A DNA stretch of 64,000 nucleotides from positions 19,818,806 to 19,882,805 of the forward strand of contig CM048848.1 in assembly GCA_026545225.1 (NCBI GenBank). The letters run 5' to 3'. This stretch comes from Cornus controversa (Eukaryota; Streptophyta; Magnoliopsida; Cornales; Cornaceae). The translations under genes were made by a program, and so were the position numbers. Every line of letters begins with the position of its first letter. Position 1 is the first letter of the stretch. Below the pieces are notes generated by a model. It had not been told where the DNA came from. It did no database searches and saw only the letters and a list, made by a program, of their open reading frames with translations. Positions 34,953 to 60,100 of the stretch are shown piece by piece.

Positions 34953-34973
34953 ACTAATGTCTCAAGGAACGTG

Positions 34974-36520: not shown

Positions 36521-37445
36521 GAATTTTTTGTTTTAAGTCATTTGTTGAAATCTAAAAAAAAATTTAAAATTGGCAAGTTTTGTTAATATTTTCGTAAAAC
36601 ATTTACATAATATTGTTATGATTTTTTTTAAAAAAATTGGCTAAGTATTATTATGATCAGTTTTCATGGCTAAAGTATATTGGTGACAAATTCTTGTATA
36701 TTTGCACCATCTGGTTTAGTCGTTATATGCCCTTTTGCTACCGTTCAATTAAACTTCTAGACAATTCTATTTATTTCAATACAAAAAATCGACACAAATT
36801 TTGAAAAACATCAAATTTCATTACAAAATAGCATTACAATATTCAATTTCATTACAAAAATGAATCTAACTCTCCAATTGTGTACCACAAATTCAAACTA
36901 ACAAGTAGAGAAAAAAAAACTATCTCTTTAAGTTATTTTTTGCTTTATGCACTTCGTGCTCGAATACAGGATTTGCTAGCCACTTCAGTACCTACAACAA
37001 AACATAGAAAAGAGTTTTGTAAATAAAACAATAGGAGTATGAAAGTCAAAAGTTCATAAACTGTTAGATAACCAAAGATTGCAATAAAGTAGTCTAGGTC
37101 CTAAAATATTTTCTTTATTTCCAAAATTTGTCCTTCTCACTCCAAAATTTACCCTTCACCAATATCTTGCCTTTTGTTACTTACCATTTACTTGAGTTTT
37201 GGTACAATAATTGTGTGACATTGTTTGTATGTCCTTGGAAACCTTATACTTTGACTTTTAAAATTTCGTGTCAATGTGTTTTTCTTTTCTCTCTTTTTAT
37301 TTTATTTTATTCTGTTCACTTTAGTCAAGTAAAAGTTCATTATATTTAATAAGGAAAAAACTCGAATATAAAAGAAGAAAAAAGACAAGTAGGGCATTCA
37401 GGTAGACTCCACAGCCAGCAATCATCTTTGGTTTGGCTGTGTTTA

Positions 37446-37533
37446 ATTTAGGAGTGGAGTAATATAGAGAATCTGTTCCTACTAATTGAATTTAGGAGTG
37501 GAGTAATATAGAGAATCTGTTCCTACTAATTGA
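37446..37533. repeat. 44-bp tandem duplication at the start of the Copia derivative
   Basis: The unit containing TTTAGGAGTGGAGTAATATA appears at about 37447 and 37491, so the flank plus the LTR start is duplicated. Confidence 0.85.
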
Positions 37534-38141
37534 TTTATTCCTTTTCGTAGATATCAGATTGTATTATTCAAATATTCTTAGCTATCTTTCATAGATATAG
37601 GAATATGTTTGTAACAACATCCTATTTTGTAGGACCTTCAACCATTCTCTGTTATTCCTTTGGTGTATATATACGTTTGTTAGTCAATAATAAATAGATC
37701 AATTTTGTTATTTTATCATGGTATTAGAGCAAACTAAGAGATAACAAAATCCTATTTTTCCCCCTTTCTTCTAAAGATCAACTTGCTGATGCTCTTACAA
37801 AGCCTCTTCCACGACAATGTTTTCTTCAACTCAAGTTCAAGATTGGACTTCTCTCCTGAGATCCATCTTGAGGGGGCATAATATAGAGAATCCGTTCCTA
37901 CTAATTGACTTATTCCTCTTCGTTGATATCAGATTTTATTATTCAAATATTCTTAGTTGTCTTTCATAGATATAGGAATTTGTTTGTAACAGCATCCTAG
38001 TTTGCTGTCTTTCATAGAAATAGGAATCTGTATGTAACAACATCCTAGTTTGTAGGAACTTCAACAATTATCTGTTATTCCTTTAGTGTATATATACGTT
38101 TGTTAGTCAATAATAAATAGATCAATTTTGTTATTCTATCA
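37504..38141 (+). mobile_element. Copia deletion derivative with two LTRs and target-site duplication
   Basis: The 5' LTR is 37504-37718 and the 3' LTR 37879-38141; both start TAATATAGAGAATC and end TATCA. A tRNA-Met-type primer site TGGTATTAGAGC follows the 5' LTR, and a polypurine tract GAGGGGGCA precedes the 3' LTR. The only coding remnant between them is the C-terminal RNase H tail, with DQLADALTKPLP. TGGAG flanks the element on both sides, a 5-bp target-site duplication. The two LTRs are similar but carry different small internal duplications. Confidence 0.9.
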
Positions 38142-39249
38142 TGGAGGACCATTGTCCTCAACTCCTCATGTGATTTGATGCTTCTAACACTAAAAATTGT
38201 TCACTATCCAAAAAACAGTTAAAAGGTTGATGCTATAGAATATATATAACTTCAACCATAGGGATCAACAAATAACATCAATGATAATGATCAATTTTTG
38301 GAAAAACAATCATATTCATTATTGTTCTTTAGCATACTTGCTGGCCTCTGTAGTTAAAATTGAAACCAAATAATGCATCACCTAGTTGATTAACAGCCTC
38401 TATAAACACATGGAAACTATTTAGCACAATTAACTAGCACACATGAAAAAGTTTCTTATATGATTCCATAATACCAGGTGGAACTAAAATTAGAATCCAA
38501 GTTTTGTAAGGATAAATAGCTACTTGATGATTTAAAATGGTCTTATCAAGAATGATGTTCCATCCAAGTCAGTAGTGACTTACTTTAACTACAGTACTAA
38601 TTTTTTTTTATATCAAAATCACAAAAATCGAATTTTTATATCTCATTTTCTTTCTCAAATCCTCTGTTTTATACAAAAGAGCAATCTTGATACCTAGTAC
38701 TTCTATAACTTATTATGTATCACCTAAAAATTTCAAATAATCTGTAGATTTGAACAATACAGATTACATATTAGGACTCAAGCACTCAAAATATATTCAC
38801 ACATTTATTTTCTCATATTCAAATTTACTATAATATATGCTCTATTATATAGCAGACCCACATGATGAATGGTTAATTTAATAAGCACTAAGCCAATAAT
38901 AGCTTTTCAAGCCAAAAACAAAGTGAGTGTGTATATATATATAAATGAAATGTGACAGCAACTAAAAGTTTATATCTCACCATTAAAATCAGTTCAAGCC
39001 CTTGTGGCAGAAGATTGAAGCTTTAAGTTCCTAATGGGGCTTTATATTTTTATCACTCATTATTTACAACATGCATAATTCTTGTCTAATGGCTAATCAA
39101 AGGTTTGATGAAAAATCATTAAGATGCACATTAAAAGAACTATCGTTACACACTATGGTTCAGCTTTCCCTCATACTCTTACTGTCAACTCAAAGGTTTT
39201 TTTGTTTCATCTTTCTTTATCTACACACAGAATCCGTGTAGAAACTAGG

Positions 39250-39564
39250 AACGGAATGATTAACAAAATCGCTAGAGTGAGGAGAGAAAAATATCAGACA
39301 AAAATGGACTTGGTGTTTTCAGACGGGTTTTTGTATGTGTTACGCTTTAGGTGTGTTAAGTTGGATTGCGTTTCCTCCGCTACAGTGACTTATATGAAAT
39401 TGGGCAGCTATAGTGATAAAAACATAACAATATCATGAATTTGGTGATACAGATTTTGGGCCAAAATTGATATTATTTTTAGACAACCCAAACATGTTTT
39501 GCGGCAAAAAAAATTGACAACTTAACACAAAATCAATAATAAAACAGGCCAACCAAACAGGACC
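39250..39564 (-). repeat. Alpha terminal region, element I
   Basis: The minus strand from 39564 carries GGTCCTGTTTGGTTGGCCTG, GCAAAACATGTTTGG, CATGATATTGTTATG, CACTGTAGCGG and TTTCTCTCCTCACTCTAGCG, matching 46557-46865 block by block. Confidence 0.85.
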
Positions 39565-39787
39565 AATGGCGTGAACTCTGTATGGTATTCTCCAGGCAAT
39601 GGATGCAGCATCGGGTCCTTTAGTTTATGTTTTGGTTCGCTTGAGATGTGTTCTTCACCGTGCACCACCTATAGCTGGCCGAACCACCCAATTCACCGCT
39701 AGCAAGCTCCACTGCAAACCACATCCAGCCTCGCCGGAACCACCACCTCCGGCGTCGTCGGTGATCTCAACACAACCACCACCAGCC
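39565..39787. repeat. Flanking direct repeat R, right copy
   Basis: It starts AATGGCGTGAACTCTGTATG directly after the right end of element I and runs to CCACCACCAGCC. It lacks about 60 bp present in the left copy. Sequence beyond it (GGGTTCAACAAGCCC...) continues the Pro/Ser-rich coding-like region to about 39865, where the F-box unit begins. Confidence 0.85.
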
Positions 39788-40236
39788 GGGTTCAACAAGC
39801 CCAACAGCCGCCGATACCAACTCTACTGCCGGCGACCCAGCCCACCGTCAGCCACTTCCTTAACTAACAAGAGTCCTAATTGGATCCCAATTCAAGTGTT
39901 AGCGTTGACTCACTTTAGTAATCCTAAGTTGAATTGCACTTAGAATTTAAAGTTGATAAAATTTTGGTACAACTATCTATGTATATTGCTACTATACTAA
40001 TCACAAACGGTATAGGACTTGGGACTCCCGCGAAGGATCAACCACCTTCAAACCGCCTTTATTTGTACCTTATTTAATAATTCATTCTTCTTTCTTCTCT
40101 CTAATTTTCACGTCTCCTGTAAAATTCTCCTTTGATATAGCAAAATTCAGGCTTGAATCAGAGGACATCTCTGTGTTTCAGATTAACAACAATTTATACA
40201 CGCACGAGGTTTGGTTTTATCTTCAAAGCAAATAGG

Positions 40237-41664
40237 ATGGTGGGGAAGATGTGGGCTGTGTCCTTGGAAAGTCTACAGGTGTGTGATTTTTTGCTATTTC
40301 TTTCTTCTTCAAGTGTTATTGCCGGCTTGTTGCTCTTCTTCTTCTTCTGTTCATCACGTAGGTCTCCTTCTCGTGTTTTGCCTTGCAACGTGCAAGAAGA
40401 AGAAACATCATTGTTACAAACAAATCCAAATCCAAATCGGAAAGAAAAGAAGGGGAAATCTAAAAAAATCTATAGATCAAATATAAGAAGAAGAAGAAAA
40501 ATTATATCTTTGCTTCATGATGATTTGTTGATTGAAATTCTATCAAGACTTCCTGTGAAATCTCTCATGAGATTCAAGTGTGTCTGCAAATCATGGCACA
40601 CTCTAATCACAAACCCTAGTTTCATCTCAAAGCACTTGTTCAATTACAATTCTTTTGGCCAACTTGTTGTGGGCCCCATGTACTACAGCAAAGATCTCGT
40701 CTTATCCTTGATCTCCTTTGATAATAGTAATAATACTAATAAGCTCGATGCCTCTGCTGTGATTTCTGTTGATAAATTTGATTTCTCATCGTTGTTAAAC
40801 CGCGAGCTCAACGGTTGCATTCACATGCTCTTTGGTTCATGTCGTGGCATAGTTTGCTTGTATGGTTCTCCACCAGATAACATTGCTCTATGGAACCCTG
40901 CAATTAGAGAGTTGAAGATTCTACCGGTATCTGGCATACCCCGTCCGCCCCATACTCGTAAGTATATCAAAGCTAGTGTTGGATTGGGTTTTGATTCAAG
41001 AACTAACGACTTCAAGGTTGTACAAATCGTGCGTTGTAAATCGTATGGTGCCTACAGCAAGGGTTGCCAAGTTGAGATATACAGCTTAAATACCAATTCT
41101 TGGAGAAAATTAGATATCAGTGTACCAGCTAAAATAAGGTACCAATCCTGGAGCTCAGTATGTACCAACAATAGGATCATCTGCTGGTGGGCCACGCTCA
41201 AAGACGTGGGTGGCGTCATCCTTTCATTTGATGTGTCTGATGAAGTCTTCTTAATCACACCAGTGCCATCATATTATGGAGCTTTTGTGGGAAAGGATAG
41301 GTTTACAAGGGCTATTGTGCCTTTCGATGACTCCATTGCACTGATTGTTTATACTCCACAAGACGAACCACAATCCTTTGAGATGTGGGTGATGAATGAA
41401 TTTGGTGTTGAACAATCCTGGACAAGACTACTATCTTTTGGCCCTTTTCCAGAAATCTATCAGCCGTTGGGATTTTGGAAGAATGGTCAGTTTCTTTTAA
41501 CTAATCACTCTGGAAAGCTGTTCCTCTACGAGCATGGTACCCAAGAAATCAAGTATCTTGGAATTCAAACAAAATCCAATATCTCTTATGTCCTCGGTTA
41601 CAAGGAAAGCTTAGTTTCAGTCAATGGAGGAAGAAATGTGTTAAAAGAACAAACCATGGAGTGA
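40237..41664 (+). CDS. F-box protein with F-box-associated (FBA) domain, copy A, intact
   Basis: This is the only intact protein gene seen. From the first ATG of the frame (40237) the product is 475 residues; the frame is open upstream to 40153, but that codon is TTG. Residues 89-134 are the F-box ([20 protein letters not shown], then [15 protein letters not shown]), which binds SKP1 in SCF ubiquitin ligases. Residues about 193-460 are an FBA type 1 domain (GCIHMLFGSCRGIVCLYG, ALWNPAIRELKILP), the presumed substrate-binding part. An odd hydrophobic segment at residues 17-38 precedes a Lys/Arg-rich linker. Related copies lack it in frame, so it may be an intron or UTR read through, with the true start elsewhere. 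There is no near-F-box ATG. Copies lie at 43568, 54796 and 62090. The substrate is unknown. Confidence 0.85.
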   Translation: MVGKMWAVSLESLQVCDFLLFLSSSSVIAGLLLFFFFCSSRRSPSRVLPCNVQEEETSLLQTNPNPNRKEKKGKSKKIYRSNIRRRRKIISLLHDDLLIEILSRLPVKSLMRFKCVCKSWHTLITNPSFISKHLFNYNSFGQLVVGPMYYSKDLVLSLISFDNSNNTNKLDASAVISVDKFDFSSLLNRELNGCIHMLFGSCRGIVCLYGSPPDNIALWNPAIRELKILPVSGIPRPPHTRKYIKASVGLGFDSRTNDFKVVQIVRCKSYGAYSKGCQVEIYSLNTNSWRKLDISVPAKIRYQSWSSVCTNNRIICWWATLKDVGGVILSFDVSDEVFLITPVPSYYGAFVGKDRFTRAIVPFDDSIALIVYTPQDEPQSFEMWVMNEFGVEQSWTRLLSFGPFPEIYQPLGFWKNGQFLLTNHSGKLFLYEHGTQEIKYLGIQTKSNISYVLGYKESLVSVNGGRNVLKEQTME

Positions 41665-41670
41665 TGTAGT

Positions 41671-41952
41671 TATGGACTGGATTACTTGGTTTTTGGATTT
41701 TTAATTTACCTCCATTCTATACATAGTTCATAGTTGGAACATTGTAATTGTCAGAATAGTGGTAAAGTTTGTAACAAAAATAATTAAGGCCAATATGGTA
41801 CCAATTATTCAGAATACTGTTCTGGACAATAAAAATTAGATAATTAGAGTCATTTGGTCACAAGATGGACAACTTTTTTTAATTGCATAGATGTTCTTTA
41901 ATCTTTGTAGGCTCCATCATTTAATTGCATAGATGTTCTTTAATCTTTGTAG
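41671..41952. repeat. 41-bp tandem duplication ahead of the cyclin exon
   Basis: TTTAATTGCATAGATGTTCT...GGCTCCATCA occurs twice, at about 41878 and 41919, duplicating the 3' splice site TTTGTAG and the first bases of the exon. The rest of this interval is intron-like and holds nothing else. Confidence 0.8.
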
Positions 41953-43227
41953 GCTCCATCATTCCAGCTAGAGTGTTTGGCAAACTACCTTGCAGAGTTA
42001 TCTCTTCCAGAGTACAGTATGCTTTCTTATCCTCCATCACTTATTGCTGCTTCAGCGATTTTCTTGGCCAACCATATGTTTATCCCTTCGAAGAGACCTT
42101 GGGTACGTGTTGCCTAATATTCATAATAGATACAGTTCTAGGGATTTTTATCCCCACTCTATATTGGAAACACTTCTAACATGTTTCAAGCATTTATTTG
42201 ATTTAATACAGAATTCCACTTTGCGGCATGACACACATTACGAGCCCTCTGATTTATGTGGTTGTGTTAAGGTGCTGCATAGTCTTTGTTGTAACAGCCA
42301 CGGTTCTAGTTTACCTGCAATTAGAGAAAAATATGGTCAGCATAAGGTAAGTAAAATTTCTCATGCCAGATTCTCTCTTCCTCTCTAAACAACACACATG
42401 ATCAGATTTAACAATTATTTTGGTTCTTTATTCTTAAAGAATGTTCAACTATAAACTTGCAATAGTCATTAGAACTATTTTTGTGCCCAAGTAATATAAA
42501 GATGTGGGAGACAGAAGTACTTTACAATGACAAATCTTGTTGAGAGGACAAACTGTTACAAAAATCTGTCTACAAGTATGCTTTTGGGGATTAAAAATGT
42601 TTTCTATCATTTGGTGCAGAATAGTTTAAAATCCTGTGGCTTACTGCACTTGATGTTTCCTTGTAATTGATGAAATGTCTTAGACCAAGGCTTGACACCC
42701 GAATAAAGCTGGTCTTATTGATGAGAAGCATGAGAAAAACACTTAAATACTTTTTAAAAATACATTGAAACCGTATACGGTCTGGTACTCTGGAGGGCTG
42801 ATGCTTGTTGATCACCTGATTTTCTTTGCTTAAAGTTTGCCAGATTACTTATGGAACTTCAGTCAGTGTGTTTATATAACAAAAAATTATCAAAACATGT
42901 TCTGGTCAATTATTTTGGAAGGAGCTGATTGAGAAAAACTTTTTAGTGATAAATCATCTCTTAAGTTTTTTTATATCTTCACTTGAAAAAAATTGTCAAT
43001 GAAACAAGTGGACATAACATAATCTATTATTTTTTTAAACTATTTGTCTCTTGGTGCAAGGTTTTTTGAAATAGTCCACCAAAAACAAGATTTTACTGTT
43101 ATGGTTGCTGACATCTACATGTTCTAACCTAAAGTGCTGTGTCTCTATGAATCAGTATAAATTTATTGCAAAGAAGTACTGCCCTCCTTCAATTCCTCCA
43201 GAGTTTTTCCAGAACCTGAGCAGCTGA
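41953..43227 (+). pseudogene. A-type cyclin (CYCA1-like), last three exons only
   Basis: Three exons with good splice sites encode the C-terminal cyclin fold. Exon 41953-42102 reads [20 protein letters not shown] and ends in FIPSKRPW before GTACGT. Exon 42212-42346 reads NSTLRHDTHYEPSDLCGCVK, then LPAIREKYGQHK before GTAAG. Exon 43156-43227 reads YKFIAKKYCPPSIPPEFFQN and ends LSS with a TGA stop. A-type cyclins activate CDKs in S and G2 phase. The exons themselves are open and little changed, but the N-terminal half, with destruction box and first cyclin fold, is absent. The fragment lies between the F-box gene and a repeat of its 3' end. It is a captured or duplicated gene tail with no own promoter. 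Confidence 0.92.
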
Positions 43228-43567
43228 GGCATGGCAGTCGTGTAACTGTTCCGGCGCTCTGTTGGATGGACTTCAGGTGCAAATCATCTCCTAAGGTATT
43301 GGATTCAATTCTTCCCCCTTGACCGGCCTCACCTAAGGTCAGGGGTTCTAGGATTGGTAGACAGAGGGATAAAATATATATATATATGTTTCCTGCCAGG
43401 CAACATGATGAGAGTTCCTCATTTTTCTAATTTACCTGCCAAGATGGTAGAATTTTCAATTACAAAAAGTTATATAAAAGGTAAATGGGGCATTGATTAA
43501 TCCAATTTGTTCTAACTATTCCTTTTATTTCATGGATTAACCAAAATACTAGGAAGGTAAATGGGGC

Positions 43568-43888
43568 ATTGTTTATACTCCACATGTCGAACGACAATCC
43601 TTTGAGATGTGGGTGATGAATGAATTTGGTGTTGAACAATCCTGGACTAGACTCCTATCTTTTGGCCCTTTTCCAGAAATCTATCAGCCGTTGGGATTTT
43701 GGAAGAATGGTCAGTTTCTTTTAACTAATCACTCTAGAAAGCTGTTCCTCTACGAGCATGGTACCCAAGAAATCAAGTATCTTGGAATTCAAACAAAATT
43801 CAATATCTCTTATGTCCTCGGTTACAAGGAAAGCTTAGTTTCAGTCAATGGAGGAAGAAATGTGTTAAAAAAACAAACCATGGAGTGA
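43568..43888 (+). pseudogene. F-box protein C-terminal fragment, copy A'
   Basis: It matches the last about 107 codons of copy A (41344-41664) almost exactly, with IVYTPH then MWVMNEFGVEQSWTRLLSFG and ending KKQTME. No F-box or FBA start precedes it; upstream is unrelated AT-rich sequence. Differences include KSN to KFN and KEQ to KKQ. With copy A it forms a direct repeat bracketing the cyclin fragment. Confidence 0.95.
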
Positions 43889-44752
43889 TGTAGTTATGAA
43901 CAGCTGTTTTATTTGTTTGCCAACTCCATTGGAAGCTAGCTGTATCAAAGGATTCCAACTCCAGTTAAAGAGCATTTCCCCTACTCCACATTTTACAAAA
44001 ATACTCATTTTTTACTTTGACATAGTTCTTATAATTTTGGTCTAATCGACTTTTAAAGATAGACTCTTGTGCACTTTGTCTGTTGCTAATACTCCTCCAA
44101 ACGGAGAAGCCCTTGCATATTCGAATATGCCACTCGATATATCTCTAGATCTTTTCGATATCTTGGCATCTGTGTTGGTGTCTCTTTTGCATTCTCAGTT
44201 GTTCATGATGGGGTCATCCATAGTGAGTGCTCCTTTGTTGGCTATTCTTGCTATTTTGATTTTCATGTTGATCTGCTGTTGTGGGGTATGCCCCAGGTAG
44301 GATGTCTAGATCCTTTTTTTTTTTTCATTGGAAATACAGTCTTATTAAATTAGTAAAAGATAAAAGAATTTTCAGAATTATATTTCATTAATATTTTCGA
44401 AGTGAATTACTGCCAACGATTGACCCAAAGAAAAGCCTAAGCTCACTTTACCGAAAAAAGAAAAGAAAAAGAAAAATAGACTAAGCCGCTTTTATGTCCT
44501 GATGGACATTGGATAGAATGTACAACTCAAGAGCAGATCGAGAACTAGACATTACTCACTCTAGAAGGAAAAGACACTCTGTGTTGGTTGCTTAATTGAC
44601 TGTCTTAATTCTATGTTAGTGATAATAATCCCATAAAAAATTTGTTCATATAGTATATTAGCTACATCCCAGTATCAAAAAACAGTTGTATCTTTACGTT
44701 GAGATCATGTTTAACAGTCTCTAAGTCATGCCTATTCAAATAACAATGAAGG
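43889..44752. repeat. Shared 3' flank of the F-box copies (copy A')
   Basis: This is homologous to 56058-56935 and 62679-63385. Blocks include GCCAACTCCATTGGAAGCTA, TCTAATCGACTTTTAAA and ATGCCACTCGATATATCTCT. A 57-codon ATG frame (44127-44300, MPLDISLDLFDILASVLVSL) is disturbed by indels in the second copy, so it is probably not coding. Copy A itself lacks this flank: cyclin sequence intervenes. Confidence 0.85.
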
Positions 44753-45045
44753 ATATACTTAAACGGGCGGGGTCTGAAATAGTCAGATGTACGCAGCCTT
44801 ACCTCCGCATGGAGATGTTGTTTCCGCTTTCAAACCCATGATCTCTAGGTTACACGGTTGCTCATGGTCCACCTCAAGGATATAATTAACGTTGCACTAA
44901 TATCAGTACTATCCACTGTAGCATATTGTCATAGAGTGTCAAGCAAGATCAGTTTCACTTAATATCCATCAAATGAAGGATAGAGTCTTGAGCATAAAAG
45001 ATTTAGTTTACAGTTTGCTTGGTGATCTTGAGTCCCATTAGTTTA
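44753..45045 (-). mobile_element. SINE-related dispersed repeat, copy 1
   Basis: The minus strand carries GAGCAACCGTGTAACCTAGA (A-box-like), ATCATGGGTTTGAAA (B-box-like) and GGTAAGGCTGCGTACATCTG followed by CAGACCCCGCCCG, the body shared by many plant tRNA-derived SINEs. Homology with 51231-51525 extends about 180 bp beyond the SINE-like core, so the repeat unit is larger than a plain SINE. Confidence 0.7.
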
Positions 45046-46288
45046 CGAGTGTGTTTTGTTGATTTACATTAACAAAGTCAGTTTAAAGATGAATATGAGC
45101 CTCCACGCATTTCTTGGCATTCAAACCTCTATTTTGAGCTGTTAGTTACTGTTAAAATGTTTCTTAGAGGTCTGGTTCATCATTGCGTAATCTGAAATGT
45201 ATTCTTGATGATTACAACATGCTACATCTGATATATTGAGTATTTTCCATCTCATATTCACTGAAATCCATGACTACACCACTGACATGCTTACCTAATG
45301 ATTGCTGAGGTTACTCTAATTAGCTTCTGGGCTAACATGGGTGATTTAGGCAAGTTTCAAACATCATGTATGATCTGTTGAACATTTGCTTGAAGGTAGT
45401 TTAAGGCTGTGATTGAAATTGATATTCTTTCTGCAAAGTTACTGTTCATTGCTGATATAATTTCTTGTTATTGTCAACCATATAAAAAAAGAAGCAAATC
45501 TGTTTCATTTGATTTCTACACTAATATGAGCTATCTTAGCAAGTGTAAAATGTATTTTATGACCAGTTAATTGAAAATCGAGTTCATAAAATGAGTTTTT
45601 CTCTTTTCCCAACAACTGTCCCACCAGGAACAGGAACAGCAGTAACTTATCCCCTTGTTGGTTGTTGCAGTCCAGGCCAAGTTTCCTTATCCCGAAGGCA
45701 TCTTCAAATGTGGATTGAATTGTCTCCAAAAGTAGTTCCCATGATGCTCAAACAGGCCCTCAAAGCTAGCCACGTGGCTAAACCATCAGCGTCAACTAAG
45801 AATCCTAGTAAAAACAAGCCCTCTCCCCTTTTGGATGAATGCGGTGGATGTTTCGAATCAAAGAGTTTGATTACATGTATTATGTTATGTGATGGGGTCT
45901 TGCAATGAATAAAGTATGATTTAAAGGCTGCATTATTTTCTGTTCATCAGCATCACAACCCTTGCACTATATTTGCTGTCCAAAGATTCTGATTTTGTCA
46001 AAAATGATTATGCTAATAGTTGATTTGTCTCTATCAAGTCTAACAAGTGTAATTCTTCATATTTAGTCTGTTTGTGCTTGTTGGAGGATGGTTTTGTAGC
46101 ATCATCGAATTTTGACCTCTTGAAACCTGATTTCGTATATTATAATTGCTTTCATCCATTTTAAGAAAAGGCATATCTTATTATCTTGGTTTCTGACTGC
46201 TATTAGAACACAAGCAAGGATATATGATCTTTATAAGGTGTTTGTGAAGTGTTTAAGGCAGCTCCTATCTCTGCATCTATATACCTCT
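45046..46288. other. No recognised gene; one exon-like patch at 45660-45905
   Basis: After a good 3' splice site (GGTTGTTGCAG, 45670) one frame reads VQAKFPYPEGIFKCGLNCLQ and then stops. Another frame (45591-45908) runs HLQMWIELSPKVVPMMLKQA to a Ser/Lys-rich end. I recognise neither. The remaining sequence is AT-rich and featureless. Confidence 0.3.
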
Positions 46289-46545
46289 GAAAACTGAATT
46301 CCAAATTTTGAATTCCACAATGCTGAATACTGAATTCCAAATTTTGAATTCCACATTGCTGAATACTGAATTGCAAATTTTGAATTCCACATTTCTGAAT
46401 ACTGAATTGCAAATTTGAATTCCACATTGCAGAATACTGAATTCCAAATTTTGAATTCCATATTGCTAAAAACTGAATTCTGAATTCCACATTGCTCAAT
46501 ACTGAATTCTGATTTTTGGATTCCATATTGCTGAGTTCTGATTTT
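46289..46545. repeat. GAATTC-rich minisatellite
   Basis: Five to six copies of a unit of about 43 bp, ACTGAATTCCAAATTTTGAA followed by TTCCACATTGCTGAAT. Open frames of 76-107 codons on the minus strand (IQYSAMWNSKFG repeats) are a by-product. It ends about 10 bp before element II. Confidence 0.9.
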
Positions 46546-46556
46546 ATGAACTCTAT

Positions 46557-46865
46557 GGGCCTGTTTAGTTGGCCAGTTTTGATATTGTTTTTGTGTTATG
46601 ATTTCAATTTTTTAGCCCAAAACATGTTTGGCAAGTCTTGATTTGGTTTGAAAAGTTTAAAAACGGTATCAATTTGGGCCCAAAATCAGTAACAGAAAAT
46701 TGGTGATATTGTTATGTTTTGTAATTTTTCTGGCCCAATTCTATAACAGGCACTGTAGCGGCCGAAACAATATCCTCATAGTCGCATCACATATAAAAAC
46801 CAAAACTGAAAACACTTTGGTCATTTTTGACCTAAATTTCTCTCTCCTCGCTCTGGCGATTTAAG
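46557..46865 (+). repeat. Alpha terminal region, element II
   Basis: Homologous (reverse complement) to 39250-39564. It includes AGCCCAAAACATGTTTGG, GGTGATATTGTTATG, GGCACTGTAGCGGCC and TTTCTCTCCTCGCTCTGGCG. Confidence 0.85.
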
Positions 46866-46927
46866 GGCGATTTGTGTCGGAAGCCCTAGTTCTATTACAT
46901 TTTCAGTAGGAAGACCAAGGTCTTGGG

Positions 46928-47102
46928 TATGGAGAGAACCACTTGCCATATGGTTTCATACGCAAGGTCTACGACATACTCTCCGCCCAGATCCTCCTCA
47001 CCACCATCGTCTCCTCCGACATTGTTCTCTACTCTCCCGTCAACGAACTCCTCAGAGGAAAACCTGGCCTTTTGCTCTTCTTCGCATTCTTACCCATTAC
47101 AT
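46928..47102 (+). pseudogene. LIFEGUARD/BI-1-like (TMBIM) exon fragment
   Basis: The frame from 46928 reads YGENHLPYGFIRKVYDILSA, QILLTTIVSSDIVLYSPVNE and LLRGKPGLLLFFAFLPIT. It matches the first membrane segment of plant LIFEGUARD proteins (family form GFIRKVYGILSAQLLLT), ER/Golgi multi-pass membrane proteins that dampen cell death. A donor-like GTGAGT follows at 47103. The remaining six or so membrane helices are absent. The longer ORF in another frame (46923-47414) is a shadow. It lies just inside the alpha end of element II. Confidence 0.85.
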
Positions 47103-47891
47103 GTGAGTCCTAGATCTCAACAATTATACATTTTGATATTCAAATTTCTTTACATATACGTGTGTATGTGTGACTTTCTTTCCGTCTTTTTCTATTTTCT
47201 ATTGATGATCTACTTAATGGATCATTTTCTTGAGGATTGTGAAGATTTTCTTGAATTTCAATTAGGGTTTGGCTCTGATTTGTGTTTAAGATGTGATCTT
47301 TTGGGTTTTGATTATTCTTTTTATTTATTTATTATTATACGTGTGTATACTGATTATTGGGTATGGGGTTGGTTGAACAAGGTATTACCTTACCCTGGCC
47401 AGTTCTGGTTTTAAAAGACATGGAAGAGAGCCTGTTATACTGTGTGGGGATAGAGATAGATTGCCAGTGCAAACGTGTTAGAGAAGGAAAATTCGAGTAA
47501 GGGAATAAAAACTAAAATTCATGTGTTGCAATGCATATGCTATGTTCCATTTAGTTGAATTGTTCAGACATTTTTATTACTAGCTCTCTATCTTCTTTCA
47601 GCAACTATAATCTTTAATTTGGACTAATTTGGTTGTGTGAATTTTCATTGTTGATCAACTAAGAGGCTGTTATATAATTTATGTTAACGAGACTATATTT
47701 TCCAATCTAAAGTAAATTTCTTTGGTGCTGCATTCTACCACTTTCCTCACTTCTTTGATGGGAATTGTTATTCTCAGTTACCAGTGACTTTTAATTGATG
47801 AAGGGGGCTAGGATGATATGGCTAGCTGCATTGCAGAAGAAACGTGAAAATCATATTTGATAGAAAATTTGATCCTTATTCTTGAAGTAGG
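47103..47891. other. Interior of element II, no exon recognised
   Basis: Intron-like AT-rich sequence joining the LIFEGUARD-like exon to the Pumilio piece. Nothing further is seen. Confidence 0.4.
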
Positions 47892-48446
47892 ATGGCAACT
47901 GAGTATGAGAATGGTGGAAGGCAGTGAAGCCAGAAAATGGTCCTTTTCCAAGGACATTACAACATTTGTATCACCATTGAATAACGCAGCAGAATATGAG
48001 TTGGGATTGCTTCTGAAAAGGCACAGATTTCACGTAGATCAACGAAACATGGTTCCAAATCGAAGCGGTAGTGCACCTTCAAGTATGGAGGGATCCTTTT
48101 CAGCTTTTGGGAACCTTATGGTTCAACAGAACTATAGTTTGAGTTCAAGCTTATCAAGTTTAAACAGTGCTATTGAAAATTGTGAGTCTCAGAAACAACT
48201 GCGCTCTGATCTAGCCTATTTTGCGTACTTCTATGCAAATGTTAACTTGAACCCGAGGCTTTCTCCACCCACTATCTCAAGGGAGAATCAACACCTTGTA
48301 TGCCAACTCATAATGAGGAGCCAGAGGGTGATAAGTCACCTCAGCAAGCTTCAAATGATTTGGAAGAAATTAGTAGTGCACTCATGTTCGGACAAAGTGC
48401 ATCTTCTTTGGCAGGTTGTCATAAAAGTTTGGTTGATCTAATACAG
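47892..48446 (+). pseudogene. Pumilio (APUM) N-terminal exon fragment
   Basis: It starts near ATGGCAACTGAG (47892), as in Pumilio genes; after a frame change it reads MRMVEGSEARKWSFSKDI, ELGLLLKRHRFHVDQRN, VPNRSGSAPSSMEGSFSAFG, NSAIENCESQKQLRSDLAYF and NVNLNPRLSPPTISRENQ. Another frame change leads to EGDKSPQQASNDLEEISSAL and CHKSLVDLIQ, then a donor at 48447 (CAG|GTAC). This is the NABP-type N-terminal region of plant Pumilio RNA-binding proteins, which repress target mRNAs through 3' UTR binding. The Puf repeats are absent. At least two frameshifts make it non-functional. Confidence 0.9.
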
Positions 48447-49177
48447 GTACAAAACTTAAACTGAGTTGTCTATTCATTTTATCTTGAGATAGTGGCATCT
48501 TATTGTACCAAATTTGTGAATGCCATTGATTGTACCATATTGTTCATCAAGGAAAGGTAAAAAGAGATCACTGCACTCTATTCTTGCAATGAATGAAATA
48601 ATAACAAATTTAATCTAAGATCAATGTGTAATTTCATGGATAAAAATATTACTTTTTGTTGAATCTGTTTGGAAACGTCCTACCTCCATAGAAAGGTAAG
48701 TTGGATTATTTTCCCACCGATCAATGTTAATCTTTGGGGAATCGTTATGCATTTAAGTCTTCTATATGGTGCATATAAAAGATGATCCTGATGTATGATA
48801 CAAATTTAGTAAGATTCGGTGTTTAGTTTTTCTTTTTGTGAATACTATATTACATGTACAGAGTCTCATGAACCTAATATTAGGTCTTGCTTCAAGTTCT
48901 ATGGCATTGAGATGTTAGCTTTATAGTGTATGATTCCATGATGCAACCAAATGCAACCCTTTCCTGATTTAAGTTCTCTGGAAATAATGGAGCCCAATGA
49001 AAATTGATTTGATGGGAAAAAAAGTTAGTTTATCTGGGATGTTAAGATGATCCACTATTATTGGTGTGAATGTGCTTGGGAGAATGCACAAGGCGCATAG
49101 CATTACATTGCTCATGAAAACTACTTTTTTATAGCATATTAATTTCTTTCACCTAATGTCTAACTTTCATTGCTCAG
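48447..49177. other. Interior of element II, intron-like sequence
   Basis: No exon is recognised between the Pumilio piece and the inhibitor-3 exon; the sequence is AT-rich and ends in a good 3' splice site (TTTCATTGCTCAG). Confidence 0.4.
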
Positions 49178-49240
49178 AAATGCTGCATTTTCCACAAAGA
49201 AAAGCCCTTTGACGAGGACGACATCGACTATGACGACTGA
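49178..49240 (+). pseudogene. PP1 inhibitor-3 (PPP1R11-like) exon fragment
   Basis: After a 3' splice site (TTGCTCAG, 49170-49177) the frame reads KCCIFHKEKPFDEDDIDYDD and stops. KCCIFHKEKPFDED is the hallmark block of plant protein phosphatase 1 regulatory inhibitor 3, which binds the PP1 catalytic subunit. The first exon, with the RVxW docking motif, is missing, and the usual His/Asp-rich tail is cut short. It is the third gene fragment inside element II, also in + orientation. Confidence 0.85.
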
Positions 49241-50189
49241 AAAGACAAAGATCCGTCCAAGAAGGTTCACAATCATGGTGATTAGTTGCTGTTCGAGGAT
49301 TGATGAAGTTGCCAGCACGAGTCATTCTTGATTTATTGGCTTCATTCTTGTAAAATACTTGGAAATTACTAGAATTGGATTTCTCGGAGCTTGATTTTTC
49401 TGGTGTTGTATATTGTTGGAATTGTTATTGCGTTTTAGATATAAGAAATGAATTGGAAATTTATTATTCAATTGAGAGGATATGTTTTGTGTTCAATTGT
49501 TTATTGGCTATGATTTGAATCTGATTATGGGGTTCTAATTTCATATCTTTACAGAGTTTGTCAATTTGGCTTTTGCTATTAGTTTGGGTATATAGTCCAT
49601 TTCGTTTGATTATGATAATTTCTGAACACATGGTTTTGTTAACAGTTGTAGGATGTTGATGATCTTCACTTATTATTATTATTTTTTTGGATTTGTTGTT
49701 TTGGAAGGTAATGATTTGATTCATAAATTCTCTGTTATTTTGATTGAATTGTCTTGCTTTGCAACTTTGGCGAGAAGGGCGTCTGTTAAAGTTTTATCCC
49801 CTGTTTAAATATTTTCTTTCATTTGATTTCGTGGAGGTACTTTTCTGTGATCAAGATTATCTCCCTAGAATCTTTTAGAACAAAACAAGCTTCTTTCAGT
49901 GAGTTTGATTGGGCTGGCCTTGCTTGTGATTAACGAAGTAGGTAAAATACTCTATATAAAGAAACATTATTTATATCATTCTCGTGGGTTCTTATTGAGA
50001 GACCAATTCACTAGACACTGTTTTTCGGTGAGTTTGATTTTACTAATTTCAAGCATATGATTCTCAAGAAAAAGTTTAGCACAACTATTTCTTTTTTGTA
50101 TGAGAATGATCTTTAAGTTTCGCTTGGGATGTTTGTTATGTTACTTATTCTTTTCAAGCTTCAATTTGTGTTTCAAATTTTTTTGGAAA
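49241..50189. other. Interior of element II, no gene recognised
   Basis: The first part may be the 3' flank of the inhibitor-3 fragment. Open frames (49464-49724 minus, 50100-50294 plus) have no recognisable domain. Confidence 0.4.
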
Positions 50190-50415
50190 CAATTGGAGCT
50201 ACCAAACGTGTTTTCAGTGTTTTGGTTTCAAATTTTTTATAACGCATTGACGTTACCAAACATGTTAGGCATTTTCTGTTTTTGTAAATCATGAAACACA
50301 ACAATGTTACCAAACACGTTGTCAATTAATATTCAAAACATTAAAATAACACAACACATGTTATTTTATTTTCTAAAACAAAAACCAATATCAAAACACC
50401 CATCCAAACGGGCCC
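50190..50415 (-). repeat. Beta terminal region, element II
   Basis: Homologous in reverse complement to 36271-36500, including AAACACAACAATGTTACCAA and AAAACCAATATCAAAACACC. Confidence 0.85.
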
Positions 50416-51230
50416 TATATTTGCTAAAAATGCATGCTGACTTTGGTTTCTTTGAGTGCAAATTGCTTTACTTGCATCCTTTATATTTGTGCTACTAAAA
50501 GTCTACTCTAGCTATATTCTTATCAAGATTAAGAACATGTACAACGCCTAAAATATCATAAGAAGCTTTTACAGAGAATATACAAAGCTAAACGGAAGTC
50601 TAAATGGCTAAAAAGGAGGTTTATTGAAAGAGCGGGCTTCTACAAGTTATTTGTAGCTACACTCAAGGGTGTACATATTGAAGCCTATCACTGCTGGAGT
50701 TTAAGGGTCATTATCTATCAAGAATTCAAGTGGTCGTGTCATCATCAAACAAGATTTTAAAGATTGACAATCAAGGCTTGAAGAGTTGCTCTTTATAACA
50801 TCGAACTGACTCCACATTCACTATGTATAGTCCAAGTATAGGGATACTTTGGATAGGGGGAGTGTGAGTGATTGTGGTGAGAGATAGCTTGGGCTTTGGG
50901 AAGCCTGGGCTGGGTTGAGAGCGGAAAAGCTGTTATGAGGATTGGTGAGAGTGGTTCAGGCCTAGGGAGGCTGTGAACTGGGTTGAGAGCTGGAGTGGCT
51001 ATGTGGTGAGTTAGGTGAGTGAGAGAGTGATTGGAAGATTACTGTACTACCCTTTTAGACATAGTGCAGATGAGTTCGGGCCTGAGGGCCAAGCGGTTTT
51101 TTACCCCACATTAAGGTTTTTCTCAATAAATCACTATGTCAAGTTTTATAGATTGTGTGTGCCATACTTAAAGCATTAAAGACTCAAATTGGACAGAACT
51201 TATTCACCCCCTCCCCCTCTAGGTTCTTCA
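50416..51230. other. No gene recognised
   Basis: Mixed sequence with GTGAGAG-rich patches at 50860-51040. Near 51200 the string TTATTCACCCCCTCCCCCTC resembles the end of some plant LTRs, but no paired LTR or domain is present. Confidence 0.3.
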
Positions 51231-51525
51231 ATATACTTAAAACGGGCGGGGTTTGGAATAGTCAGATGTACACAACCTTACCTCCGTATGGAGATGTTGT
51301 TTTCGCTTTCGAACTTGTGATCTCCAAGTTACACCGTTGCTTCAGGGTCCACCTCAAGGATATTATTAACGTTACACTAATATCAGAACTATCCACTGTA
51401 GCATATTGTCAAAGAGTGTCAAGCAAGATCAGTTTCACTTAATATCAATCAAATGAAGGACAGAGTCTTGAGCATAAAAGATTTAGTTTCGAGTTTGCTT
51501 GGTGATCTGGAGTCCCATTAGTTTA
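51231..51525 (-). mobile_element. SINE-related dispersed repeat, copy 2
   Basis: Full-length match to 44753-45045 with scattered substitutions; both copies begin ATATACTTAAA and end GAGTCCCATTAGTTTA on the + strand. Confidence 0.7.
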
Positions 51526-53759: not shown

Positions 53760-54270
53760 TGTTGAGCGTAGAGCTTTCGTGTTTTGGATCGTTGAGTACA
53801 GAGATGAGTGAGTGATGAGAGAGAGAGAGAGAGATGAGTGATGTGAGAAGTTTTTGTGGTTCGCCAGTGGTAGCCGGAGAAGAGCGTTTCTTCAAAGACG
53901 AACTGGATAGAGAAAGAGAGAGAATGAGTTGACGAACTAGAGATAAAGAATAGGTTGACTGTAAAATTGAAAGTTGATTTATTGGGGTAATTTGACATTT
54001 TGAGGGTAATAAGGTAATATTATAACGAGGTGGTGAAGGGTAACTTAGACAATCTAGATAAATGAAAAGTGAAAGTTGACGTATTTGTAAATACTTTTGT
54101 TATGTAGGTATTTGATGCAATAGTTTTTGGTGTTTGGTGTATTTGTAGTTTTGACTCCCTAACTAGACAAAAATTAAAATTTTTCTTTATTTGGTATTTG
54201 ATGTATTTGTAGTTTTGACTCTCTAACTAGACAAAAATTAAAATTTTCTTTTATTTATAATAGATGACGT
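53760..54270. repeat. About 510-bp dispersed repeat, copy 2
   Basis: Matches 34436-34952. Its right end joins the F-box unit at TCTTAACTAACAAGAGTCCT, sequence also found upstream of copy A at about 39868. So this repeat was attached to copy B but not copy A. Confidence 0.9.
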
Positions 54271-55103
54271 CTCTTAACTAACAAGAGTCCTAGTTGGATC
54301 CCAATTCAAGTGTTAGTGTTGACTCACTTTAGGAATCCTAAGTTGAATTGCACTTGAATTTAAAGTTGATAAAAATTTGGTACAGCTATGTATATTGCTA
54401 CTATACTAATCACAAACTATATAGGACTTGGGACTCCCGCGAAGGATCATCGTCCTTTAAACCGTCTTTATTTTTACCTTATTTAATAATTCATTCTTCT
54501 TTCTTCTCTCTAATTTTCACGTCTCCTGTAAAATTCTCCTTTGATATAGCAAAATTCAGGCTTGAATCAGAGGACACCTCTGTGTTTCACATTAACAATA
54601 ATTTATACACGCACGAAGTTTGGTTTTATCATTAAAGCAAATAGGATGGTGGGGTAGATGTGGGATTTGTCCTTGGGAAGTCTACAGGTGTGTAATTTTT
54701 TGCTATTTCTTTCTTCTTCAAGTGTTATTGCCTGCTTGTTGCTCTTCTTCTTCTGTTCATCACGTTGGTCTCCTTCTCGTGTTTAGCCTCGCAATGTGAA
54801 AGAAGAAGAAACATCATTATTACAAACAAATCTAAATTGGAAAGAAAAGAAGGGGAAATCTAAAAATATCTACAGATCCAATATAAGAAGAAGAAGAAAA
54901 ATTATATCTTTGCTTCATGATGATTTGTTGATTGAAATTCTATCAAGACTTCCTGTGAAATCTCTCAAGAGATTCAAGTGTGTCTGCAAATCATGGCACA
55001 CTCTAATCACAAACCCTAGTTTCATCTAAAAGCACTTGTTCAATTACAATTCTTTTGACCAACTCGTTGTGGGCCCCATGTACAGCAAAGATCTCATCTT
55101 ATG

Positions 55104-55141
<38 letters not shown>

Positions 55142-56057
55142 TAATTATTATTATTATTATTATTATTATAAGCTCAATGCCTCTGCTGTGATTTCTGTTG
55201 ATAAATTTGATTTCTCATCATTGTTAAATTGCGAGCTCTACGGTTGCATTCACATGCTCTTCGGTTCATGTCGTGGCATAGCTTGCTTATATGGTTCTCC
55301 ACCAGATAACATTGCTCTATGGAACCCTGCAATTAGAGAGTTGAAGATTCTACCGGTATCTGGCGTACCCCGTCCGCCCCATACTCGTTGGTATACCAAA
55401 GCTAATGTTAGATTGGGTTTTGATTCAAGAACTAACGACTTTAAGGTTGTACAAATCGTGCGTTGTAAATCATATGGTTCCTATAGGAAGGGTTGCCAAG
55501 TTGAGATATACAGCTTAAATACCAATTCTTGGAGAAAATTAGATATCAGTGTACTACCTAAAATAAGGTACCAATCCTGGAGCTCAGTATGTACCAACAA
55601 TAGGATCATCTGCTGGTGGACCGTGGTCAAAGACATGGGTGGCGTCATCCTTTCATTTGATGTGTCTGATGAAGTCTTCTTAATCACACCAGTGCCATCA
55701 TATTATGGAGCTTTTGTGGGAAAGGATAGGTTTACAAGGGCTATTGTGCCTTTTGATGACTCCATTGCACTGATTGTTTATACTCCACAAGTCGGACGAC
55801 AATCCATTGAGATGTGGGTGATGAACGAATTTGGTGTTGAACAATCCAGGACTAGACTACTATCTTTTGGCCCTTTTCCAGAAATATATCAACCGTTGGG
55901 ATTTTGGAAGAATGGTCAGTTTCCTTTAACCAATCACTTTGGGAAGTTGTTCCTCTACGAGCTTGGAACCCAAGAAATCAAGTATATTTTAACTAAGAAA
56001 AGCTTAGTTTTAGTCAATGGAGGAAGAAATGTGTTCGAAGAACAAACCATGGGGTGA
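54271..56057 (+). pseudogene. F-box protein gene copy B, broken
   Basis: This is a near-identical relative of copy A, including its 5' flank. The frame corresponding to the start of copy A has a stop at the VL(P) position just before EEETSLL, so no ATG leads into the F-box. The F-box itself (54900-55029, [20 protein letters not shown]) is followed by a stop at SFI. A microsatellite has expanded where copy A has a few AAT triplets. The FBA domain then reads on (DKFDFSSLLNCELYGCIHML to 56057) with an internal loss near the end (GTQEIKYI joined to LTKKSL). The product cannot be a full F-box protein. Strong similarity to copy A implies recent duplication. Confidence 0.9.
55104..55169. repeat. Palindromic (AAT)n(ATT)n microsatellite
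   Basis: About 12 AAT units run directly into about 9 ATT units, which could fold as a near-perfect hairpin. Copy A has GATAATAGTAATAATACTAA at this place. Confidence 0.95.
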
Positions 56058-57198
56058 TGTAGTTATGAACAGTTGTTTTATTTGTTTGCCAACTCCATTG
56101 GAAGCTAGCTGTATCAAAGGGATTCCAACTCCAGTTAAAGAGCATTTCCTCTACTCCACATTTTTCAAAAATAGTCATTTTTTACTTTGAAATAATTCTT
56201 ATAATTCTGGTCTAATCGACTTTTAAAAATAGACTCTTGTGCACTTTGTCTGTTGCTAATACTCCTTCAAACGAGAAGCCCTTGGATATTGGAATATGCC
56301 ACTCGATATATCTCTAGATCTTTTCGATATCTTGGCAGTTGTGTTGGTGTCTCTTTTGCATTCTCAGCTGTTCATGGTGGGTTCAGCGGTTATCCATAGT
56401 GAGTGCTCCTTTGTTGGCTGTTCTTGCTATTTTGATTTTCATGTTGCTCTGCTATTGTGGGGTTATGCCCCAGGTAGGATGTCTAGATCCTTTTTTTTTT
56501 TCATTGCAAATACAATCTTTTTAAATTAGTAAAGAATAAAAGAATTTCAGAATTATATTTCATTAAAATTTTCGAAGTGAATTACTACCAACGATTGACA
56601 CAAAGAAAAGCCTAAGCTCACTTTAATTACCGAAAAAAGAAAAGAAAAAGAAAAATAGAGGAAGCCAGTTTTATGCCCAGATGGGCATTGGATAGAATGT
56701 ACAACTCAAGAGCAGATCGAGAAGTAGACATTACTCACTCTAGAGGGAAAAGACACTCTATGTTGGTTGCTTAATTGACTGTCTTAATTCTATGTTAGTG
56801 ATAAGAATCCCATAAAAAATTGGTTCATATAGTATATTAGCTACTTCCCAGTATTGAAAAACCATTGTATCTTTATGTTGAGATCATGTTTAACAGTCTC
56901 TAGGTCGTGCCTATTCAAATAACAAAGAAGGATATACGATGGTCCATGAGGCCTATGAGCTTGTTTGCCCAAGTTTTAATTTCAAAGGAAACCTCTGGGG
57001 ACGTTTTAGTCCATCCTCTATTACAAGGGCATTTTGAGTATTTCTACAGCCATTTAATCATTCCTAAGTATGAATTACATTGTTGTATCACATTCTTATC
57101 ATGACAGCCCCCTCATATTGAGAATTAGCACTAAAACCCCTTCGAGGGTCATTTTTGGAATTTCACTAAGTAAGGCCTTGTTTGGCTGAATGATATTA
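56058..57198. repeat. Shared 3' flank of the F-box copies (copy B)
   Basis: Homologous to 43889-44752 and 62679-63650. The unit ends GAATGATATTATTTA at about 57198, where Copia internal sequence starts. In the third copy the same string (63635-63650) continues into TATGTTCATTACATG, so this copy was cut at the junction. Confidence 0.9.
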
Positions 57199-60100
57199 TT
57201 TAAAGGAAAAGACGACTACCTCACAGGCGCTATTGTAACCCCACAGAAGGAAGACCCAAAATTCCGAACCTGGAGATCTAAAAATAATATGGTAATGTCG
57301 TGGTTGATTAATACCATGGACAATGAAATTGGGCAGAATTTCATGTTCTATGGAACCGCAAAAGAAGTTTGGGATGCAGCGAAGGAGACGTACTCCGACA
57401 ACGACAATACAGCAGAACTGTTAGAGATTATAAGCAGTCTCCATGATTTGCAGCAAGGGGATCTCTCCATCACACAATACTATAACACTCTTACCTGTTT
57501 TTTGCAACAATTGGATGTCTTCGAAGAACTTGATTGGGATTGCCCTGGGGACACAGCTAAATACAGGAAAATAGTCGAGAAGGAGAGAGTCTCAAAATTC
57601 CTACTTGGTCTAAACAAAAACCTTGATGAAGTTAGGGGGAGAGTATTGGGGAAGAGGCCTTTACCCTCAATCCGGGAAGCTTTCTCCAAAGATGTGTCGA
57701 GAAGAAAGCAGGAAGAAGATCATGATGGGAAATCAAAGCACTGCAAATATTCCAGAAAGTTCAGCTCTTGCAACTCGTGGAATGAATCCCACCAGTGACA
57801 ATTGAACTCGCAAAGGCAAGCCTTGGTGTGATCACTATCACAAGCCTGGACATACCAAAGAGACATGCTGGAAAATTCATGGAAAGCTAGCCGACTGGAA
57901 ACCAAATAGACCATCTCAGGATAGAGAAGGTCATGGTCTAGCAGCCACTACAGATGACCAACCAACAACCGAAGCTGTACCCTTCAGCAAAGCACAGATT
58001 GAGATGTTGTAGAAGATGTTCAACCAACTTCAGTCAAGTCCAACAACACCAATCATCAGCACAGGTTCAGTAGCACAAAAAGGTACATTCCTAAGTACTC
58101 TTGGAGCCAAAACCAAGAATCTAACTTCATAGATTATTGACTCTAGAGCATCTGATCACATGACTGGGGATGCCTCCTTATTCCAAAAGTGCAACCCGTG
58201 TTCTGAAAAATACAAAGTGAGAATAGCAGATGGTTCTCTATCCACTGTGGCTGGTATTGGGTCAATTAGCATCTCAAAGACCCTTGTATTAAATTCCGTG
58301 TTATTGGTTCCTTATCTGACCTGTAAACTTTTATCCATTAGCAAAATTACTAGAGATATGAGTTGTGTTGCTAAATTCTTTCCCACTCATTGTGAATTTC
58401 AAGACTTGGATTCGGGGAGGACGATTGGCAATGCTAAGGAAAGTGAAGGGCTCTACCTCCTCAAGAGTGATAATCAGTTTGAAAAACAATCTCGAAGTGC
58501 TCATAGTGCAGAGAGTCAGTCTGTTATAAATTCCAATTCTGTTCCAGTTTCCAATAATGAAAGTGCAATTATGTTGTGGCATTTTCGATTAGGTCACCCA
58601 AGTTTCATGTATCTTGAAAAGTTGTTTCCTTCTTTATTTATTAGAAAAAACTCAAAGTCTTTCCAGTGTGAAATTTGTCAATTGTCCAAACATACTCGAA
58701 ATACTTATCCAATTCAACCATACAAGGAATCACAACCATTCTCAGTTATACATAGTGATATTTGGGGACCCTCTCGAGTCAATAGTATTACAGGAACCCG
58801 ATGGTTTATCTCTTTTGTTGATGATCATTCTAGAGTTACCTGGATATTCCTTATGAAAGAAAAATCTAAGGCAGGACCAATCTTTAAAAAATTTCACTCA
58901 ATGATCCAAACTCAATTCCTTGCCAATGTTTAAATTTTCAGAACAAACAATGCCAAGGAATACTTTCATTCTATTCTTGGGGATTATCTCCTTGATCATG
59001 GGATAATTCATCAGAGTTCTTGCATACACACCCCACGGAAAAATGGGATAGCTGAGAGGAAAAATTGACACCTATTAGAAGTTGCTCGTTCTGTCATGTT
59101 CACAAGTCATGTCCCAAAACATTTATGGGGGGAAGCTATCCTTACCACTGCCTATCTTATAAATCGTATGCCTTTAAGAGTCTTGAATTTCCAAACTCCG
59201 TGCCAGGTACACACTCAAGTCTATCCTCAATCCAGACTCATCTCGTCTTTGCCACTAAAAGTCTTCGGTTGCTCAGCGTTTGTCCACATACCTCTACATC
59301 AAAAAAGTAAACTAGATCCCAAAGCCATAAAATGTCTAGTCCTTCGATACTCTCCTCACCAAAAAGTTTACAAATGTTACTCTCCCACTACTCGGAAGTT
59401 CTATAACTCAATGGATGTCACCTTCTTTGAGAATCAGCCCTTCTACTCCAAAACTCATATTCAGGGGGAGAATTCCATAGTCCAGAAGAATATCAGTTTT
59501 GGCAAGATGTGGATACCCCATTTGTACCTTCCACCGACTCAAGTTAATCTCCTCTGGGTAACTCCACCACTCTTCCACATGTGCCTATTCTAATTTAGTC
59601 AGCACCCGAACCATCCGTTCATTTTGAACCCACTCCACAAAGTCCTCAGGTTCTGACCCAACAAGGAAAATCAAGGATATTTAAAGGGATTGTTTATTCA
59701 AGAAAGCAGACCACCGCTCAAAGGGAGGTAGATCAACTCACTTTTCCTGAACAGAACCAAGCGTCCGCTCTAAATCCAGTCACTCCTACTCAAGGTAACA
59801 CAGATTCTTATCCTTGTAATGATCTTGATATTCCTATTGCTCAAAGGAAAGGTGTTAAGTCATGCACTAGGCACCCAATCTCAAACTTTGTGACATATGA
59901 GAGACCGTCTCCGTCCTACTATGTTTTTACCTCAAATCTGTCCAGCATAGATGTTCCAAGCTGTATACAAGAGGCTCTAAAACACCTTGAATGGAAGGAA
60001 GCAGTTAATGAACAAATTTGGGCTCTTGAGAAGAATGGTACTTGGGAACTCACAGAACTTCCCAAAGACAAACAACTTGTGGGATGCAAGTGGATATTCA

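Follow-up and report, generated by a model that had tools for sequence, protein, structure and literature searches.

The stretch of DNA analysed here, referred to as the window, comprises 64,000 nucleotides (64 kb) of the Cornus controversa genome (NCBI GenBank assembly GCA_026545225.1, contig CM048848.1, positions 19,818,806 to 19,882,805 of the forward strand). It contains at 46557–50415 an element of 3,859 base pairs (bp), el1, in which host-gene-like pieces lie between inverted ends resembling those of PIF/Harbinger DNA transposons, and a second element, el2, in which the same end modules surround different cargo. The features of el1 and of its insertion site are as follows.

46557–50415, plus strand: el1, whole element with gene fragments inside and PIF/Harbinger-type ends; 3,859 bp; inverted ends, putative natural empty site, second family member present
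46286–46541, plus strand: tandem array of 36-bp units, ending 15 bases left of el1, which is inserted at the array's end
46554–46556, no strand: TAT flanking el1, left copy of the putative 3-bp target duplication; removal of 3 or 4 bases gives the best joins
46557–46900, plus strand: left (L) module of el1, about 345 bp, common to el2 (blastn), with a TATA-like CACATATAAAAACC from 46788 and a pyrimidine-rich stretch
46910–47102, plus strand: LIFEGUARD/BI-1-like (Bax1-I) fragment, then a GTGAGT donor-like site from 47103; Pfam PF01027, E 0.0014, below cut-off
47892–48446, plus strand: Pumilio-like fragment (tentative name), frame-shifted, then a GTACAA donor-like site from 48447
49178–49240, plus strand: PP1 inhibitor-3-like fragment after an AG acceptor-like site at 49176–49177; Pfam PF07491, below cut-off
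50174–50415, plus strand: right (R) module of el1, about 242 bp, common to el2, with three GTTTGGTA sites on the minus strand (50200, 50254, 50308)
50416–50418, no strand: TAT flanking el1, right copy of the putative 3-bp target duplication; removal of 3 or 4 bases gives the best joins

Inverted ends of el1

The left start of el1 is GGGCCTGTTTAGTTGG, and the opposite end, read inward, is GGGCCCGTTTGGATGG. The 12-mer GGGCCYGTTTRG is present exactly at 46557–46568 on the plus strand and at 50404–50415 on the minus strand. When it was scanned across the window with up to two mismatches, 11 matches were obtained against 7.16 expected, a number not significant as such; the two at the ends of el1 are the only ones of the 11 without a mismatch. 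The left and right ends match at 81% over about 42 bp, and the 45-bp end pair scores 50, compared with a maximum of 40 among 20,000 random pairs. When read in reverse, the L module is weakly matched by an R-module profile for about 264 bp (E 4.4e-4); the composition bias of this match, 17.5, is larger than its score of 14.7, and no weight is placed on it. Scanning the window for Rfam families and tRNAs gave no matches.

A second element with the same end modules

The L and R modules recur in el2, on the minus strand and to the left of el1.

36271–39564, minus strand: el2, second family member, 3,294 bp, with the same two modules as el1 and different cargo
39231–39564, minus strand: L module of el2, extent from the profile of the el1 and el2 copies
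36271–36509, minus strand: R module of el2, extent from the same kind of profile, with three GTTTGGTA sites on the plus strand (36369, 36416, 36470)
37504–37721 and 37879–38144: direct repeat pair in the interior of el2, 76%
39565–39790, minus strand: host segment of 226 bp next to the el2 L end, first copy of a direct duplication (alignment)
35992–36273, minus strand: host segment of 282 bp next to the el2 R end, second copy, of which 3 bp overlap the element end (alignment)

The L modules align by blastn along 320 columns at 70% (E 1.6e-34), and when gaps are left out 228 of 311 columns are identical; for the R modules the alignment covers 235 columns at 87% (E 4.9e-79), and 209 of 233 columns without gaps are identical. 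The interiors of el1 and el2 share short matches only, the best with an E value of 0.026. The two elements thus have common ends and unlike interiors, and the family is therefore defined by its ends, with the cargo free to vary. A TATA-like block and a pyrimidine-rich stretch are present in the L modules of both.

Apart from the weak R-to-L match described above, the el1/el2 profiles found no further copy of either module above threshold in the window. Exact scans of viral and genome contigs for the R-module patterns found none, as little was expected of collections made up of viruses and prokaryotes. A possible last exon of el2 matched a designed helix bundle (E 0.0021) and cytochrome chains (E 0.11 and 1.2) in the PDB; these matches are taken as chance.

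The insertion site

TAT stands directly on both sides of el1. Duplications of 2, 4, 5, 8, 9, 10 or 11 bp gave no full match at the flanks: 4 of 5 positions agree for 5 bp, 2 of 8 for 8 bp, 3 of 9 for 9 bp, 4 of 10 for 10 bp and 2 of 11 for 11 bp. The right flank resembles the 36-bp array with a score of 27, which was reached by 2 of 5,071 systematic control 40-mers and by 3 of 4,954 random ones. When the flanks were joined with one TAT removed, the join aligned continuously through the junction with a single array unit, at a score of 34. None of the 5,071 control joins reached this value (their maximum was 27), nor did any of 4,955 random ones. The score depended on the number of bases removed: 34 for 3 or 4, 29–33 for 1, 2, 5 or 6, 27 for none, 26 for 7, 22 for 8 and 21 for 9 to 12.

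We read the joined flanks as a natural empty site that fits a 3-bp duplication. Since the join aligns to one array unit across the junction, the 3,859 bp of el1 therefore arrived as a single insertion.

Resemblance of the ends to those of PIF/Harbinger elements

The ends compared were el1 L GGGCCTGTTTAG, el1 R GGGCCCGTTTGG and el2 L GGTCCTGTTTGG. Published PIF/Harbinger ends include those of ZmPIFa (GGGCCCGTTTGTTT), PePIF1 (GGGYCYGTTTGGGGC) and Harbinger (GGTCCTGTTTGTTTG), of MtPH-E (GGGCCTGTTTGRAAC), which is given together with a terminal G(N)5GTT rule (PMC2213677), and the terminal inverted repeat (TIR) of AndroPIF (GGGCCCGTTTG; PMC11161486). Three of the four ends of el1 and el2 satisfy the G(N)5GTT rule.

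The R modules carry a further likeness. All six GTTTGGTA sites of the window lie within the two R modules, three in each; as these modules are homologous copies, the sites count as three independent ones. GTTTGGTAACGT occurs once per R module, at 36416 and 50250, and equals part of AGGGCCCGTTTGGTAACGTT, the motif bound by the melon SANT1 protein (PMC11161486). With at most one mismatch, GTTTGGTAACRT has six matches in the window against 0.78 expected, four of which are inside the R modules. As to the target, an ATA duplication is listed for OsPIF2, and in one study the share of PIF elements with TTA/TAA was 52.4% in rice and 81.2% in maize (PMC8903248).

No transposase family was matched at E≤0.05 by any of 60 query sequences from el1 and el2, which comprised open reading frames and pieces at least 40 codons long as well as the inhibitor piece. 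The ends of both elements start with GGGCC or GGTCC and not with CACTA. Helitrons have TC...CTRR ends and a hairpin, and lack both a TIR and a target duplication; el1 runs from GGGCC to GGGCCC, is inverted at its ends and has TAT on both sides. Neither the 8-bp target duplication of hAT elements nor the 9-bp (8–11) duplication of MULEs was found at el1.

Cargo of el1

The LIFEGUARD/BI-1-like piece matched Bax1-I in two scans (E 0.0012 and 0.0014), and the PP1 inhibitor piece matched PPI_Ypi1 (E 2.9e-4), both below the Pfam gathering score, as is common for fragments. One of the 60 scanned members matched PPI_Ypi1 at E 1.1e-4 and is taken to be 49178–49240. Weak as it is, the Bax1-I match counts because LIFEGUARD/BI-1 had been named before the Pfam scan. 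A PDB sequence search returned no match for either piece. Baculo_VP39 (E 0.0031), AAA_lid_11 (0.024) and DUF7735 (0.046) each matched one of the 60 members and are taken as chance.

The piece at 47892–48446 is presumably derived from a Pumilio gene, a tentative name with no database support. Three versions of the piece were compared with Pfam, and none matched a family at E≤1. No protein relative was found in genome or viral contigs, which says little for collections of prokaryotes and viruses, and Pumilio peptide strings were not found in the open full-text literature searched.

All three pieces are oriented from L to R, an arrangement with a chance of 1 in 8 under random orientation. They are broken: a frame shift interrupts the Pumilio-like piece near 48300, and a stop codon follows DYDD in the inhibitor piece. 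An earlier note on this DNA had described exon pieces of three host genes, all on the plus strand and with splice signals. The common strand holds for all three pieces, and the LIFEGUARD/BI-1 and PP1 inhibitor names gained Pfam matches below the cut-offs, while the Pumilio name is still tentative. Splice-like dinucleotides, not scored against chance, do occur at the edges of the pieces.

A probable Pack-type PIF/Harbinger transposon

The favoured explanation is that el1 is a non-autonomous DNA transposon of the PIF/Harbinger superfamily and of Pack type (Pack-PIF), with a probability of roughly 80%. As in Pack-type elements, el1 contains host-gene-like sequence (two of its three pieces have Pfam matches, below cut-off), no transposase family was found in el1 or el2, and the two differ in cargo. 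The single element between inverted ends that the earlier note had proposed is borne out by flanks that fit one array unit and by the recurrence of the L/R pair around other cargo in el2. Its view that the ends belong to neither a Helitron nor a Pack-MULE also agrees with the inverted ends, the TAT on both sides and the lack of a 9-bp duplication. An origin of the ends in an unknown type of element is not supported: they resemble ends already described for PIF/Harbinger elements, and both Pack-PIF elements and multi-locus capture have been published for maize and rice (Gisby and Catoni 2022, PMC8903248).

Several observations weigh against this explanation. With regard to the ends, the R end of el2, GGGCCGTTGG, breaks the G(N)5GTT rule, and clear likeness between L and R modules is limited to about 42 bp. 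Two of the six GTTTGGTAACRT matches fall outside the modules, and the whole 20-base SANT1 motif has no match in the window with up to three mismatches. Neither a transposase nor an autonomous copy was seen among the 60 open reading frames and pieces. As for the insertion site, the duplication at el1 is TAT and not the usual TTA/TAA, and its length is not sharp, since removal of 1 to 6 bases always gives scores of 29–34 and a 5-bp duplication matches at 4 of 5 positions. The good scores come from the array itself; against its consensus unit the values are only 12 for the flank and 14 for the join. The empty-site test was post hoc, conceived after the flank alignment had been viewed. A 3-bp duplication is lacking at el2, where the direct host duplication of 226/282 bp adjoins both ends instead. 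Finally, the Bax1-I match (E 0.0014) stands beside the presumed chance match to Baculo_VP39 (E 0.0031), and the TATA-like block is conserved in 23 of 30 columns, no more than several neighbouring blocks.

An autonomous relative elsewhere would supply the transposase and a SANT/Myb protein; these would attach to the ends and to the GTTTGGTA repeats and mobilise any DNA in between. The cargo may have been acquired stepwise, as genomic DNA with introns, either through joint movement of neighbouring insertions or through repair of a gap at the donor site. Gisby and Catoni have proposed that two adjacent copies mobilise jointly with the DNA between them (PMC8903248); the present data do not separate such joint movement from gap repair. 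The L module might retain the promoter and 5′ leader of an ancestral element, a guess drawn from two sequences without excess conservation. If so, the sense cargo could be transcribed as a chimeric RNA, probably non-coding or with short reading frames.

A bolder form of the Pack-PIF explanation appears doubtful. It holds that this is a PIF/Harbinger family in which the L module is a mobile promoter-leader driving sense exons captured stepwise, so that each copy would produce its own chimeric transcript, and in which members are also placed by break repair that gives duplications of hundreds of bases, as at el2.

Comparison with known systems

The closest published counterparts are the Pack-PIF elements of maize and rice, which resemble el1 in their PIF type and host gene pieces, with cargo that varies within a family, and have a 3-bp duplication such as the putative one of el1; multi-locus capture is reported for Pack-TYPE elements in maize (PMC8903248). 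A maize Pack-PIF cluster in the same study has average lengths of 402–535 bp and captured pieces of 58–163 bp, whereas el1 is 3.9 kb long and carries three pieces with intron-like sequence. In Arabidopsis, no new Pack superfamily was found in that study (PMC8903248). MtPH-E and other Medicago PIF/Harbinger families share with the present elements the GGGCCTGTTTG ends and the G(N)5GTT rule, and have a 3-bp duplication, as el1 putatively does; gene capture, unlike in el1, seems absent from the main text of that paper (PMC2213677). AndroPIF of melon has a PIF TIR and a SANT1 motif of which part recurs in the R modules, and it encodes a transposase and SANT1, whereas no such family was found in el1 or el2 (PMC11161486).

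The mechanism is already known, and el1 is probably a clear, cargo-rich example of a thinly described kind of element; in the open full-text literature searched, the term Pack-PIF occurs in a single paper (PMC8903248). What is new here is the putative natural empty site, the cargo in one direction and an L module, possibly promoter-bearing, common to two elements. Pack-MULEs and gene-capturing Helitrons also carry pieces of host genes, often from several of them. The 9-bp duplication of MULEs was not found at el1, and its inverted ends and putative target duplication argue against a Helitron. With two members that have shared ends and unlike cargo, the end modules can be used as bait across the genome. 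Should the L module act as a promoter, the assembly of chimeric genes by transposons could be studied in this family as a test case.

Alternative explanations

It is improbable that el1 belongs to a different superfamily of TIR elements, namely MULE, hAT or CACTA, and carries Pack cargo as such. Multi-gene capture is indeed best known for Pack-MULEs and Helitrons, the R-to-L profile match over about 264 bp could mean long TIRs, and a 5-bp duplication comes close at the flanks; against this, the sequence fits PIF ends, no duplication of 8, 9, 10 or 11 bp was found, and the ends of el1 and el2 start neither with CACTA nor in the manner of hAT ends.

Placement of the segments by double-strand-break repair, with the ends as mere passengers, is quite improbable as an overall account and a real possibility for el2, given the long direct host duplication on both of its sides and its lack of a 3-bp one. 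The window offers a comparable case in the Cyclin_C insert at 41678–43567, with a 334-bp direct duplication of 97% and an uninterrupted paralogue at 55773–56070. However, el1 has a short duplication and a putative empty site, and both boundaries of el2 coincide with its TIR ends. el2 may have arisen either by transposition into an older duplication or by break repair. Two independent insertions, for instance of miniature inverted-repeat transposable elements (MITEs), around a normal or repair-patched gene-fragment region, the outcome on which the single-element model could have failed, are very improbable: the surroundings are rich in inserts and duplications, including the Cyclin_C insert, and the flank join fits one array unit and not the array consensus, but no control reaches the score of the join with 3 or 4 bases removed, and the ends of el1 are two different modules in inverted order, as in el2.

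The surrounding region

In the region 41344–43901, the Cyclin_C fragment (E 4.6e-9; insert 41678–43567) lies within a copy of an F-box gene, the insert being flanked by the 334-bp direct target copies; the paralogue at 55773–56070 is without it. This looks like an insertion made during break repair, with a duplicated target of considerable length; such duplications are typical of the patch type of repair. The F-box gene region is duplicated in the window (34440–44758, 53761–57202 and 62077–63649), with copia-type retrotransposon domains at 57190–60264 between two of the copies.

Three GGCCTTGTTTGG ends follow TAA on the plus strand, at 57174–57188, 63621–63635 and 63743–63754. The first two are GGCCTTGTTTGGCTG, like the end of OsPIF1 (PMC6327408). 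The matches from the scan with up to two mismatches include no exact copy of the 12-mer in inverted orientation. These ends possibly represent a second PIF-type family.

Nearer to el1, a direct repeat of about 295 bp (91.5%) occupies 44753–45045 and 51231–51525, 1.5 kb and 0.8 kb from the element, and a further exon-like stretch, for which no Pfam family was found at E≤1, lies at 45600–45908, left of the tandem array. Further away, the long stretch at 11000–28000 is AT-rich and shows a strong GC skew, with repeat periods of 38, 48, 52 and about 450 bp mixed together, and 8566–10401 is a tandem duplication of part of an Auxin_canalis-domain gene (Pfam E 3.5e-26 and 3.5e-49).

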